From Pseudanabaena sp. ABRG5-3 (GTDB lineage Bacteria > Cyanobacteriota > Cyanobacteriia > Pseudanabaenales > Pseudanabaenaceae), in the NCBI RefSeq assembly GCF_003967015.1, contig NZ_AP017560.1:2914001-2978000 (forward strand): a DNA stretch of 64,000 nt. Reading direction: 5' to 3'. Shown here one piece after another: positions 37,186 through 44,921 of this stretch. The translations under genes were made by a program, and so were the position numbers. Below the pieces are notes generated by a model that did not search any database, was not told where the DNA came from, and saw only the letters and a list, made by a program, of their open reading frames with translations. Within the stretch, counting starts at the first letter, position 1. Each line of letters opens with the position of its first letter.

Positions 37186-38025
37186 CTAAGACATTCTCAG
37201 TAGTCTAATTTGAGCAATGATGAAAATAGCGGGAATAATCCGTCCGTAGTTAGTAGCGATCGCCCGCCAACCCAGATCCGCAAAAAATAAACCCCATAGC
37301 GCAGGCGTAATCACAGAGAAAACAGTTCTAGCCGCAGTATATTGGGTCGCCGCAACTGCCATCCCGCGTTTTGCTAAATAGGTAGAGACATAGGCATTTA
37401 ATCTTGTCGCGATCGCAGTGCCTCCTGCCTTCAAAACTTCATAGCCCACTTGGTAAGATGCAAAATGCCATGCCATTTGTCGGGCGATCGCATTTAATAC
37501 TGCCGAACGAATAACGGTACTCACAGCGATCGCGCTACCACCCTTGAGCAGTAAACTCATCGGGTTACGCTGAGCATCAAGGGGCAAGGATTTTTTCAAA
37601 TCTGACTCCGTAAGAGCTGCTTGTACAGAATCATCAAGGCTTGAACGTTCCTGAGGTGAGAGCTTTTTCCATGAATTGCTAATCAAATTCAGGAATAATT
37701 CAGACTCAATATCTTCGACGGTTTGATTTTTAGAATATTTAATATTGAGGTGCTGACAGACACGCTCTAGAACTTCACGATAGCTAACATCACTAGTTTT
37801 GCGGCGGAGTACCGTCAAGCCATCGGCAGCCAAAAATCGAAAACGCTTAGCGATCGCCTCAATTAGTTCATCCCGATCCCAGCTTTGTAACTCTTGCACA
37901 GGAGGAGTAGCCACATAATCAATGGGGTTGAATTTACGCCGAAACAGTATATCCGCAATTTGATATAGCTCTTCATCGGTTGCCAATGCCAGAACATTGC
38001 TTAATTCATCCATTGCCCTATCCAT
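37186..38025 (-). CDS. YaaW-like membrane-associated protein (DUF3944-type N-terminus)
   Basis: 279 residues. The N-terminal LSNVLALATDEELYQIADIL and the later SPQERSSLDDSVQAAL resemble YaaW/UPF0174 proteins with a ubiquinol-cytochrome c chaperone-like region. The C-terminal half is Ala-rich with several hydrophobic stretches (LLLKGGSAIAVSTVIRSAVL, AARTVFSVITPALWGLFFA, IIPAIFIIAQIRLL), which suggests association with a membrane. No catalytic motif is visible. An in-frame ATG 4 codons downstream (MDELSN) is an alternative start. Confidence 0.68.
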   Translation of the reverse strand: MDRAMDELSNVLALATDEELYQIADILFRRKFNPIDYVATPPVQELQSWDRDELIEAIAKRFRFLAADGLTVLRRKTSDVSYREVLERVCQHLNIKYSKNQTVEDIESELFLNLISNSWKKLSPQERSSLDDSVQAALTESDLKKSLPLDAQRNPMSLLLKGGSAIAVSTVIRSAVLNAIARQMAWHFASYQVGYEVLKAGGTAIATRLNAYVSTYLAKRGMAVAATQYTAARTVFSVITPALWGLFFADLGWRAIATNYGRIIPAIFIIAQIRLLRMS

Positions 38026-38253: not shown

Positions 38254-39690
38254 TCATTTACGAGATTTGGGTTTACTAAAACCATGCCCCGATTTACTAG
38301 CAGTTTTTGATTTTTTAGATTTAGCCGATGTGGCAATAACTTCGGCTGGGGGAATAGATATAGATGTATGTTCAGCCTCGATCGCAGGGATATCTGGGTT
38401 AACTGTCTCTAGATCTGGCGTTACAACATCAGCAAGAATTGTCTCTAACTCAAGTTCTGGGATGACCTCATCAACATGTTGGTTTTGTGTCTCCACAACA
38501 GGTTGATTAATTTCTATAGTTTTATCTACAGTTTCTAGATTAGTTTCTACAACTTCTTCTTTTTCTAGATTAGTCTCTACGACTGCATCTACAGTTTCTA
38601 CGTTAGTTGCTACAACTGCTTCGTCTATAACTGCATCAACAACAGGCTCTGAAGCCTCTATCACGGGTTCGGCAATCTTTACGTCAATTTCTGGAACTGA
38701 CGCTACCACTAGATTAGAAATTTCTGGTTCTACAATTGGATCTGGTGTTGCGATCTCTACTTCTATATTGTCTATAGGGGCTGTAGGTATATTAGCTATA
38801 GGTTCATGGGTTTTGAGCTTAGAATCAAGTTTATTAAACCCATGCTTAGCGGAAGTCCGTGTTTTTTTGGACTTAGGTGCTACTAAGCTAGACTTAGATT
38901 TTTTCGGAGCAGCTACTGGTAATATTTCTGCTGCTGTATTTTCTCCAGTGATATCATCCTTGGCAGCAACAATTTCTACCGTCTGCTCTACAGCGGTTTC
39001 AGAAATAGTTTCTGGTTCATCAACAGTTTTTACAGGCTCCTCAAGAATAGCTGTAGGCTCAGCAATAGTTTTTACAGTTTCCTCAAGAATATTCTCAGGA
39101 ATAGCTGTAGGCTCGGCAATAATTTCTACAGTCTCTTCAGGCGTAACTTCAGAGACAGGTGCGATCTCTTCTGGTGCTGTTACAGCAATATCTTGCGAAG
39201 TAATATCTGCATTACTCTCCAAGTTTTCTACATCATGGCTATGATGCTCATTTTGAGCAAGAGATGGATCAATAGCACGAATCTCTTCAACAATAGGGGC
39301 ATTAGCTTCTGACAAAGTACTTTCTGCGGATACCTCAATATGCTGATCATCGCTCGCCTTAATAGATGGCTCGATAGATTCTACGGATTCTGCGATCGTA
39401 GGATTATTGTCAATATTGGTTGCGATCGCAGAATTAGCATCAACAGGCTCGTCGTCAATCCTTGACATATCATCAGCCTGAAAGCGAAGAATAGAGACAT
39501 TGATAATCTTTCCACCCAGCCGACGAATTGTTTGCATTCTTTTGGAAAGGGAGCTATAGGCAATAGTGACTGTCTGAGTCTTGCCCTGCATTTTTCCTTG
39601 CTGAATACCACCTGTAAACTCAATCTGGACTTGGTGGTTTCTGTAATCATCCACAGATGGAGTTACAGAATCAATATCTACACTTTTCAT
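38254..39690 (-). CDS. Protein with N-terminal CpcD-like linker domain and long acidic, repetitive tail
   Basis: 478 residues. Residues about 18-68 end in VTIAYSSLSKRMQTIRRLGG and KIINVSI, which matches the CpcD linker fold found at the ends of phycobilisome rod linkers and in cyanobacterial FNR (pattern Y..L...M..I..LGGKI..I). From about 75 to 460 the chain is of low complexity: Glu/Pro/Val/Thr-rich, with repeats such as EETVKTIAEPTAI and VVETNLEKEE, no predicted fold and almost no aromatic residues. Two basic motifs stand out, KKTRTSAKHGFNK near 285 and KKSKTASKSGHGFSK at the C-terminus. It may bind phycobilisomes through the CpcD part. The tail's role is unknown. Confidence 0.7.
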   Translation of the reverse strand: MKSVDIDSVTPSVDDYRNHQVQIEFTGGIQQGKMQGKTQTVTIAYSSLSKRMQTIRRLGGKIINVSILRFQADDMSRIDDEPVDANSAIATNIDNNPTIAESVESIEPSIKASDDQHIEVSAESTLSEANAPIVEEIRAIDPSLAQNEHHSHDVENLESNADITSQDIAVTAPEEIAPVSEVTPEETVEIIAEPTAIPENILEETVKTIAEPTAILEEPVKTVDEPETISETAVEQTVEIVAAKDDITGENTAAEILPVAAPKKSKSSLVAPKSKKTRTSAKHGFNKLDSKLKTHEPIANIPTAPIDNIEVEIATPDPIVEPEISNLVVASVPEIDVKIAEPVIEASEPVVDAVIDEAVVATNVETVDAVVETNLEKEEVVETNLETVDKTIEINQPVVETQNQHVDEVIPELELETILADVVTPDLETVNPDIPAIEAEHTSISIPPAEVIATSAKSKKSKTASKSGHGFSKPKSRK

Positions 39691-39896: not shown

Positions 39897-40056
39897 TTAC
39901 CTCAACGTCAGTTCGGGTTAAGCTGGTAAATTTTAAAAGCCCAAAAGTAAAAGCCTTGCACAGCAAGGCTTTTACTTTTGGGCTTTGAGAGAGGGTTTGC
40001 GTAGCAAACCCTCTCTCAAAGCCCGTTTCAAATTATCCCGAACTCGCGTTACCTCA
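39897..40056. mobile_element. MITE-like element family A, copy 1, with 8-bp flanking duplications
   Basis: The element is 39905-40048 (144 bp). TIRs: left GTCAGTTCGGGTTAA, right (complement) GCGAGTTCGGGATAA. Exact 8-bp direct duplications TTACCTCA flank it at 39897-39904 and 40049-40056. Inside are two hairpins, one of about 24 bp arms with a GCAAGGC core (39940-39985) and one reading GAGAGAGGGTTTG/CAAACCCTCTCTC (39987-40016). No gene of its own. A second copy is at 44769-44914. Confidence 0.82.
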
Positions 40057-40248
40057 GAGCAAAGCAAAACCCAGCAAAGGCTAGCTCTTCGAGTTTACAA
40101 GACTAGCAATAGCCATGTTAAAGCAAGCTGTAATCTATTGCAGGTAAGGCATAACCTAGTCATGTGCTTCCTATAGCCAGCAAAATCTTACCGATGCGTT
40201 AGGATTGCTGAGAGTCCAATTACAACACTTTGCGCTCAAACCAGAACC

Positions 40249-40371
40249 AAGAAAATTTTTAAAAGCGTTGCTTTGCAACGCTTTTAAAAATTTTCTTGTG
40301 GTTCTTTTGATCAAAAACTGCTAACCCAGAGTCCAAAGCTGTGGCGCACGCTGCGCGTGCGCCACAGCTTT
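40249..40371. repeat. Long hairpins and a decayed family B repeat upstream of hemH
   Basis: A perfect 23-bp hairpin (40249-40271 with 40275-40297, loop TTT). Then comes a perfect 17-bp hairpin (40335-40351 with 40355-40371, loop TGC) that shares its GTGGCGCACGC core with family B copy 1. The right end (to about 40404) matches family B ends, but the left end has decayed. The whole spacer 39691-40630 (940 bp) has no credible ORF. Confidence 0.7.
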
Positions 40372-40630: not shown

Positions 40631-41782
40631 ATGGGGCGATTAGGAGTTTTACTGCTGAACCTCGGTGGACCAGACAAGTTAGAGGATGTCCGCCCATTTT
40701 TGTATAACTTATTTTCTGACCCAGAAATTATTCGCTTGCCATCGCCATTGTTGCAAGCACCCCTCGCATGGCTCATTTCCAGTCTCCGTGCTAAACAGTC
40801 TCAGCAAAACTACAAAAAAATTGGTGGTGGCTCTCCTCTCCGTCGCATTACTGAGGCTCAAGCTCAAGCCTTGCGTACACAGCTCGTCCAAAATGGACAT
40901 GAAGCTCAAGTTTATGTGGGAATGCGCTATTGGCATCCCTTCACCGAAGAGGCGATCGCTCAAATCAAAAAGGACAAAATTGAAGAATTAGTAGTTCTAC
41001 CTTTGTATCCACAGTTTTCGATCAGCACTACAGGTTCTAGCTTCCGCTTACTAGACCGCATTTGGAAAACCGATCCTGAATTACAGAAGATCAAATATAC
41101 AGTTGTGCCTTCTTGGTATGACAACTCATGGTATTTACAATCAATGGCAAACCTGATCGCCACTAAACTTGATCAGGTCAAAGACCCTAGCAAAGCCCAT
41201 ATCTTTTTTAGCGCCCACGGTGTGCCAGTTAGTTACATCGAAGAAGCAGGTGATCCTTACCAAAAGGAAATAGAGGCTTGTGCTGCTTTAATTATGCAAA
41301 AGCTAAATCGACAAAATCCTTATAAGTTGGCTTATCAAAGTCGTGTGGGTCCCGTTGAATGGTTGCAACCCTACACCGATGTCGCGATCGAAGAATTAGC
41401 ATCACAAGGTGTCAAAGAATTAGTCGTGGTTCCGATCAGTTTTGTCTCTGAACATATCGAAACCCTTGAAGAAATCGATATGGAATATCGAGAAATTGCT
41501 GAACATGCAGGTATTGAAACTTTTGCGCGTGTCCCTGCTCCAGATACTGACCCCACATTTATCCAAGCCTTAGTCGATGTGGTACTCAAAGCTTTAGGCG
41601 ATCGCCCTATTCCCTTCTCGGCAACTATCCAGCCACAAAAAAATACCAAACTCTACCCACAAGAAAAATGGGAATGGGGCATGACCCCTTCCGCAGAAGT
41701 GTGGAATGGGCGCTTAGCAATGCTCGGATTCCTGATCCTCTTGCTAGAGCTATGGCTAGGACGTGGGCAAATTTTGCAATAA
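40631..41782 (+). CDS. hemH: Ferrochelatase with C-terminal CAB/HLIP domain
   Basis: Inserts Fe2+ into protoporphyrin IX, the last step of haem synthesis. 383 residues. Ferrochelatase motifs: [24 protein letters not shown]-like [29 protein letters not shown] (with the catalytic His) and [16 protein letters not shown]. The last 35 residues ([19 protein letters not shown] then ILLLELWLG) form one TM helix with the chlorophyll-binding E..NGR.AM.GF motif. This is the type II ferrochelatase of cyanobacteria and plastids, membrane-attached and tied to pigment supply. Confidence 0.97.
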
Positions 41783-44784: not shown

Positions 44785-44921
44785 GCTGGCTAAATTTAAA
44801 AGTAACTAAAAAGTAAAGCCTTGAAAAGCAAGGCTTTTACTTTTAGTCTTTGAGAGAGGGTTTGCTACGCAAACCCTCTCTCAAAGACCGTTTCAAATTA
44901 TCCCGAGCTCACATTAACTAA
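44762..44921. mobile_element. MITE-like element family A, copy 2
   Basis: The element is 44769-44914 (146 bp), with the same TIRs and the same two internal hairpins as copy 1 (GCAAGGC core, then GAGAGAGGGTTTG/CAAACCCTCTCTC). It is flanked by exact 7-bp duplications TAACTAA (44762-44768, 44915-44921). The element starts inside the accC reading frame. It is about 80-85 % identical to copy 1 by eye, most of it in the right half. Confidence 0.8.

Follow-up and report, generated by a model that had tools for sequence, protein, structure and literature searches.

A putative rod-capping linker with a long disordered tail, apparently derived from the phycoerythrin operon, is kept in Pseudanabaena genomes without phycoerythrin

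Introduction

Single CpcD domains, rod caps and the operon (cpe) of the red pigment phycoerythrin are known. The CpcD rod-capping linker in the strict sense is a compact protein of about 80 aa whose gene belongs to the cpc operon. What rod ends do beyond stopping rod growth is poorly understood, and in many cyanobacteria FNR is also carried there. Three-domain FNR, in which a CpcD domain is followed by a flexible stretch, docks at rod ends (PMC10322944, PMC9319322). The FNR CpcD domain does so on PF00427 of CpcC2, the terminal rod linker, and CpcD binds in a similar way (PMC10322944).

Here we describe a gene, called X below, in a stretch of 64,000 nucleotides from Pseudanabaena sp. ABRG5-3 that was analysed as a whole (the window). 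Its product joins a CpcD domain to a long acidic tail with basic GF motifs. A first-pass annotation of the window knew of no described protein with this layout, and in the openly licensed part of the PMC literature we likewise found no description of a CpcD protein with a tail of this type, as far as the available text extends.

Results

Gene X and its product

The features discussed below, in window coordinates, are the following.

38254..39690, minus strand: gene X, 478 aa, with CpcD domain, acidic disordered tail and basic GF motifs (ORF, Pfam, homologues)
39487..39636, minus strand: CpcD (PF01383) rod-cap domain, residues 19-68 (Pfam match at 31-66, AlphaFold2, PDB fold matches)
38875..39468, minus strand: first acidic low-complexity tail segment, residues 75-272 (composition; AlphaFold2 pLDDT 29-47 by block, structureless; dN/dS)
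38818..38874, minus strand: internal basic motif KSKKTRTSAKHGFNKLDSK, residues 273-291 (alignment; dN/dS, the located motifs of a pair being pooled)
38323..38817, minus strand: second acidic low-complexity tail segment, residues 292-456 (AlphaFold2, charge pattern; holds a 30-bp tandem repeat)
38257..38322, minus strand: C-terminal basic motif KSKKSKTASKSGHGFSKPKSRK, residues 457-478 (alignment; motif profile)
40631..41782, plus strand: hemH, a landmark neighbour that also flanks an intact cpe operon in the relatives L108 and L110

The reading frame had been annotated as a CpcD domain fused to an acidic tail of about 400 residues, and this description holds: of the 478 encoded residues, 31-66 match PF01383 (E 6.7e-7, 30.0 bits with the threshold at 27), the only Pfam domain in the protein, and the tail is predicted to be disordered. 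A genome-wide search with PF01383 gave X 33.6 bits. The fold of the N-terminus, which the annotation had proposed to compare with CpcD, agrees with that assignment. AlphaFold2 placed strands at residues 20-26 and 38-44, a helix at 45-57 and a third strand at 61-68 in a model of residues 1-80 that was built on ten aligned sequences and had a mean pLDDT of 69 (65-88 by block over residues 21-70). When the domain was compared with the PDB, chains from phycobilisome structures occupied ranks 1-33 in Foldseek (best E 1.4e-3, none at or below 0.001) and ranks 1-23 in VIA-align (Z 5.0-6.2, with the first unrelated row at Z 4.9). Such values are modest, as would be expected given the small size of the domain. 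A sequence search of solved structures found neither X nor a closely related slot gene of the kind described below; the matches were CpcD, CpcC, FNR, ApcC, a red-algal core linker or a phycoerythrocyanin rod linker. Only five CpcD-domain genes are present in the window's genome (G000), read as CpcC1, CpcC2, CpcD, ApcC and X.

The tail (residues 75-478) contains 14.6% E, 10.9% V, 10.9% A, 10.6% I, 8.7% T, 8.2% S and 8.2% P. It had been called rich in Glu, Val, Pro and Thr; this needs a slight correction, in that Ala and Ile match Val and exceed both Pro and Thr. Trp and Cys are absent, and the only two Phe, at 283 and 469, belong to the two similar basic HGF motifs that were recognised in the first pass. 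AlphaFold2 predicted residues 75-478 to be disordered (pLDDT mostly 29-48 by block), apart from one weak helix at 413-422. An imperfect 30-bp tandem repeat of 3.2 copies (38525-38622) lies within the acidic tail, and is a likely way in which the tail has grown. A profile of the GF motif matched nothing in the window's genome beyond the two copies in X at E of 10 or below, and a role for the motif as a general protein tag is accordingly unsupported there.

Two side observations concern the immediate surroundings of X. Three perfect inverted repeats stand between X and hemH (39936-39986, 39980-40024 and 40248-40298, with arms of 24, 21 and 24 nt and loops of 3 nt); they look like REP- or MITE-type elements, and 44828-44843 holds a further copy of the core of the first. 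A neighbouring gene for a 279-aa protein (37186-38025) has a weak match to PRK10236 (E 4.9e-6). It is kept beside solo X genes in G002, G023 and G025, and lies one gene off in G021.

X and its tail across the genus

A domain query over 58 relatives identified strong homologues of X in 21 of the 26 genus genomes, counting the window's own. A profile search added a diverged copy in G001 (E 5.2e-8) with an acidic tail and a terminal GFNK motif, and the search for this architecture in other genomes that the first pass had called for therefore found X in 22 of 26. Because 21 strong homologues and one diverged copy are present, and complete homologues have the layout in common, the frame is not a chance ORF. 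The ten relatives that carry names are called Pseudanabaena in eight cases, Phormidium tenue in one and uncultured cyanobacterium in one. Four of the 26 genus genomes yielded no X, one of them (G016) with a cpe operon that could be read through the position where X would lie, and none was found in the cpe operons of the sister genera G026, G028 and G029, which indicates that X is dispensable; genome completeness is 82% for G006 and 76% for G016. In G009 the 5' end of X (L156, near 1291-1395) is split over two overlapping frames, either a frameshift or an assembly error. Phycobiliprotein genes were present in 38 of 38 family genomes, so the case raised in the first pass, of homologues confined to phycobilisome-free relatives, does not arise here.

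In complete homologues the tail measures 118-463 residues and ends in a basic S/T/K-rich GF motif, often preceded by one to three internal copies, with four copies at most (L010). The internal motif has decayed in the group formed by G008, G010, G017, G019 and G020, and the X proteins of G011 and G024 have the terminal motif alone. About half of the Phe residues in the tails of homologues fall inside a GF motif (35/67) and the other 32/67 outside. We calculated charge statistics for 19 of 21 loci, leaving out G013 (L004) and G005 (L010), which have undetermined residues, and keeping G009. Segregation of opposite charges exceeded the average over 200 shuffles in 19/19 tails; the last 40 residues had a net charge of +5 to +12, and the most acidic 40-residue window one of -9 to -15. 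The tails of L012 and L013 are nearly neutral. By eye, tail length did not differ clearly between copies from phycoerythrin-less and phycoerythrin-bearing genomes.

A slot in the phycoerythrin operon

In Pseudanabaena frigida (G014, L108) the gene order is cpeC, cpeD, cpeE, X, cpeS, cpeT, cpeR. In this naming CpeS was confirmed by Pfam, and the other names come from sequence reading and operon order. Six genus genomes (G001, G008, G014, G017, G019 and G022) have X between cpeE or cpeD and cpeS. In the window's genome no cpe gene neighbours X, and hemH is the only one of these landmarks at its flank.

The same slot is also filled outside the genus. We read 28 genomes (29 regions) chosen from the best profile matches, a sample that is not a census: 15 of them have a short CpcD gene between cpeE or cpeD and cpeS, G380 has one before cpeS with no cpe linker on the other side, and G082 has one after cpeE without cpeS, so that the slot is occupied or adjoined by such a gene in 17/28. 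G265 has cpeE alone at the slot. The matches in G180, G047, G106 and G372 lie beside cpe-like linkers where no ORF passed the filter or cpeS is missing, and those in G112, G387, G088, G371, G061, G083 and the second G117 region are in cpc-type or other linker loci. Some of the slot-gene tails are close to nil, some are acidic and several have a K/R-rich end; the tails of G168b and G216 were cut too early, and their lengths are therefore not given. Two small CpcD proteins per operon, one on each side of cpeS, are encoded in L248 and L258, and L111 has two different kinds of small CpcD gene in tandem before cpeS.

In a domain tree of 71 sequences, 14 X and 20 slot sequences formed one cluster apart from the domains of CpcD, FNR, CpcC and CpeC/D/E, albeit with weak support (0.8/66). 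The 14 X sequences are not a clade of their own: the slot genes of G032 and G219 fall among them, beside the G001 copy. We scanned nine proteins (the window's X, the G001 copy and seven slot genes) against NCBIfam, and all scored far below the cut-offs of the CpcD and CpcD-FNR models, so that we met no name for this subfamily. Gene order indicates that X arose within the phycoerythrin operon, as its putative cap gene. For a small CpcD gene between cpeE and cpeS we found no description in the open-licence PMC literature, as far as its accessible text goes, and within that scope X adds a gene to the cpe operon.

Retention after loss of phycoerythrin

Searches for CpeR, CpeD and CpeB agreed that 12 of the 26 genus genomes have phycoerythrin and 14 lack it. 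The window's genome is among the latter, with CpeB, CpeD and CpeR not found. X is present in 11/12 phycoerythrin-bearing and 11/14 phycoerythrin-less genomes, and all 11 phycoerythrin-less copies are open from start to stop. Several of these copies stand at the scar of cpe loss. In G010, which retains a CpeR remnant of 27 residues, the order is gcvP, X, HEAT, p160, compared with gcvP, cpeR-T-S-X-D-C, HEAT, p160 in the phycoerythrin-bearing G017. Likewise, hemH, a HEAT gene and X remain in G003, compared with hemH, p160, ankyrin, HEAT, cpeC-D-E-X in L108, and in the window's genome hemH adjoins X. G011 has cpeC beside X, and G020 has a shortened cpeE on another contig than X.

Five phycoerythrin-bearing genomes (G004, G005, G009, G012 and G013) likewise have X apart from their cpe genes. 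The cpe clusters were read in four of these five, that of G009 being spread over small contigs and left out, and in all four they have two CpeD-like linkers and no X. The flanks of G005 and G022 were matched by ORF order and length alone. A cpe cluster of a second type was seen in L265, L266, L267 and L268: it has two CpeD-like linkers ahead of cpeS-T-R and no X, which these genomes keep elsewhere, and in L265 and L268 its stretch also includes cpeB. It is a possible reacquisition of phycoerythrin.

Mapped on a tree of GcvP and FNR, the absence of phycoerythrin amounts to about nine separate lineages, seven of which keep X in at least one member; these counts assume no regain of phycoerythrin and are approximate because the support of deep nodes is low (41-68). 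That several lineages kept X after losing phycoerythrin suggests that the tail has a job of its own.

Selection on the domain, the motifs and the rest of the tail

We estimated dN/dS for 15 pairs, which are not independent of one another; G013 (undetermined residues) and G009 (two-frame 5' end) were left out, and to find the motif (17-51 codons) a pattern was applied to one sequence of every pair. The CpcD domain gave 0.19-0.40 in the 14 pairs with a value. The GF motifs gave 0-0.24, below the domain in 9/9 pairs in which the pattern located a motif, and the remaining tail 0.40-1.21, which stands for the whole tail in the six pairs without a located motif. These sequence comparisons show the constrained part of the tail to be the GF motif and not the acidic stretch. 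Five of the nine motif pairs fall inside the window's phycoerythrin-less clade (motif 0-0.13, domain 0.21-0.39), indicating that the constraint on X persists past the loss of phycoerythrin. GcvP and FNR, taken together, gave 0.04-0.07 in five pairs, and X as a whole is thus less constrained than these enzymes.

Discussion

On balance we favour a reading in which X is a rod-terminal capping linker whose disordered tail anchors the rod end to a partner through its basic GF motif. That X caps rods is quite probable; that its tail is a specific tether comes a little short of an even chance. A tether or spacer on phycobilisomes was already the suggestion of the first-pass annotation and is still the best class of explanation. 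We infer tethering, use on phycocyanin rods and docking at rod ends, the last because X has a CpcD domain and both the FNR CpcD domain and CpcD dock on CpcC2. Since the window's genome already has CpcC1, CpcC2, CpcD and ApcC, X would be an additional cap. The annotation's interpretation is partly supported overall; it missed the origin in the cpe operon, the short slot relatives and the constraint on the motif.

As we envisage it, the predicted CpcD domain would cap the rod terminus, and the charge-segregated, disordered tail of about 120-460 residues would reach out from the rod end and present one to four copies of the basic S/T/K-rich GF motif. Through the motif the rod end would be anchored to the acidic surface of a partner, whether thylakoid lipid, a neighbouring phycobilisome or an enzyme, and X would be kept on phycocyanin rods once phycoerythrin was lost. 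A basic, Ser/Thr-rich motif with one Phe would suit an anionic membrane or an acidic protein surface, and the tail's composition recalls, by analogy, that of MARCKS. The loosely constrained acidic arm would space the motif from the rod; with tail lengths of 118-463 residues no fixed reach is called for, and the repeated motifs of some homologues suggest that avidity is useful. We consider it possible, though doubtful, that X is a new class of tether: a rod cap that would bind to membrane lipid, to neighbouring antennae or to FNR through a repeated basic GF anchor on its disordered arm, and that outlives its pigment. If the tether reading is true, tethering would be useful on any rod, hence the survival of X after its pigment. 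Retention of X in most genus lineages that lost phycoerythrin, together with a conserved motif at the end of the arm, points to a function of rod ends apart from light absorption.

X could instead be a plain rod cap, in which the domain ends rods and the tail is a partnerless bristle that prevents overgrowth or sticking by non-specific entropic or electrostatic means. The fast evolution and variable length of the tail outside the motifs fit such a bristle, and the slot relatives of G082, G328, G312, G191a and G355a are nearly tailless. However, constraint on the GF motif exceeds that on the folded domain in every one of the nine pairs, and up to four copies of it (L010) would be needless for a bristle, and we regard this reading as unlikely.

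The charge pattern could also mean that the tails of adjacent phycobilisomes bind one another through their alternating acidic and basic blocks, and so order or cluster the phycobilisomes as a condensate or array scaffold. All 19 tails tested are charge-segregated, and many have basic blocks repeated between acidic ones. By itself, however, a charge pattern is weak evidence, and with the L012 and L013 tails nearly neutral we find a scaffold rather improbable.

A further possibility is that the tail acts in trans and brings an enzyme, FNR or a different one, to the ends of rods. FNR may be the partner, since it lacks a CpcD domain across the family: each of the 32 family genomes with a full match has a frame no longer than 340 aa, compared with 370-504 aa in 19/23 genomes of other families. 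The FNR of the window's genome (L034, G000:C1:3559141-3559992) is a frame of 299 aa without a PF01383 match. FNR without a CpcD domain is known for Gloeobacteria (PMC10696076), and attachment of FNR to phycobilisomes is reported to matter in Synechococcus 7002 (PMC9319322); in the openly licensed papers searched we did not find the short FNR stated for the window's family. On the other side, the sister genera G026, G028 and G029 have short FNR frames and no X in their cpe operons, for which reason we rate FNR as partner low. Families f13 and f16 have slot genes too, and the FNR frame is long in the single genome sampled from each; nothing in sequence links the tail motif to FNR. Recruitment of an enzyme is hence improbable. 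The notion that X stands in for the missing CpcD domain of FNR is weakened by the same points, namely short FNR frames throughout the family, sister genera without X in their cpe operons, and slot genes in families with a long FNR frame in the genome sampled.

That X is a decaying relict of the phycoerythrin operon, functionless in phycoerythrin-less strains, would agree with its position at deletion sites without any cpe gene, its absence from the searches of 3/14 such genomes, the loose constraint on the tail outside the motifs and a domain less constrained than housekeeping genes, but all 11 phycoerythrin-less copies remain open and both domain and motif stay constrained in the five pairs within the window's phycoerythrin-less clade, which makes this reading very improbable.

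Comparison with known systems

The capping-linker reading of X rests on its likeness to the CpcD rod-capping linker (PF01383, NF058509), with which it shares a single CpcD domain, the fold and a predicted role at the rod end. X differs in having 478 aa, about 400 of them additional and bearing the GF motifs, in lacking an adjoining cpc gene, in its apparent derivation from the cpe operon, and in a score on the CpcD equivalog NF058509 of 22.9 bits, far below the cut-off of 80. The window's genome also holds, besides X, an ordinary CpcD (L029) whose gene lies elsewhere. In X, as in three-domain FNR (CpcD-PetH), the CpcD domain is N-terminal and a flexible stretch follows it, but X lacks an FAD or NADP domain, and the FNR of its own genome has no CpcD domain. 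The rod linkers CpeC, CpeD and CpeE belong to the same operon; their CpcD domain is C-terminal, and X is without their PF00427.

ApcG is a core-to-PSI linker, and MARCKS is a disordered, acidic protein whose Ser/Phe effector motif is basic. We liken X to both only in how it may work, as a disordered tether with a short anchoring motif, and claim no homology.

The short CpcD genes between cpeE or cpeD and cpeS share with X the operon slot, the domain and often a charged tail, and the last 25 residues are basic in G032, G168b, G262, G191b, G355b and G380. They encode 75-181 aa with a tail of near nil to about 120 residues and no repeated GF motif, G032 having one GF-like motif; the window's X has 478 aa with a tail of about 400.
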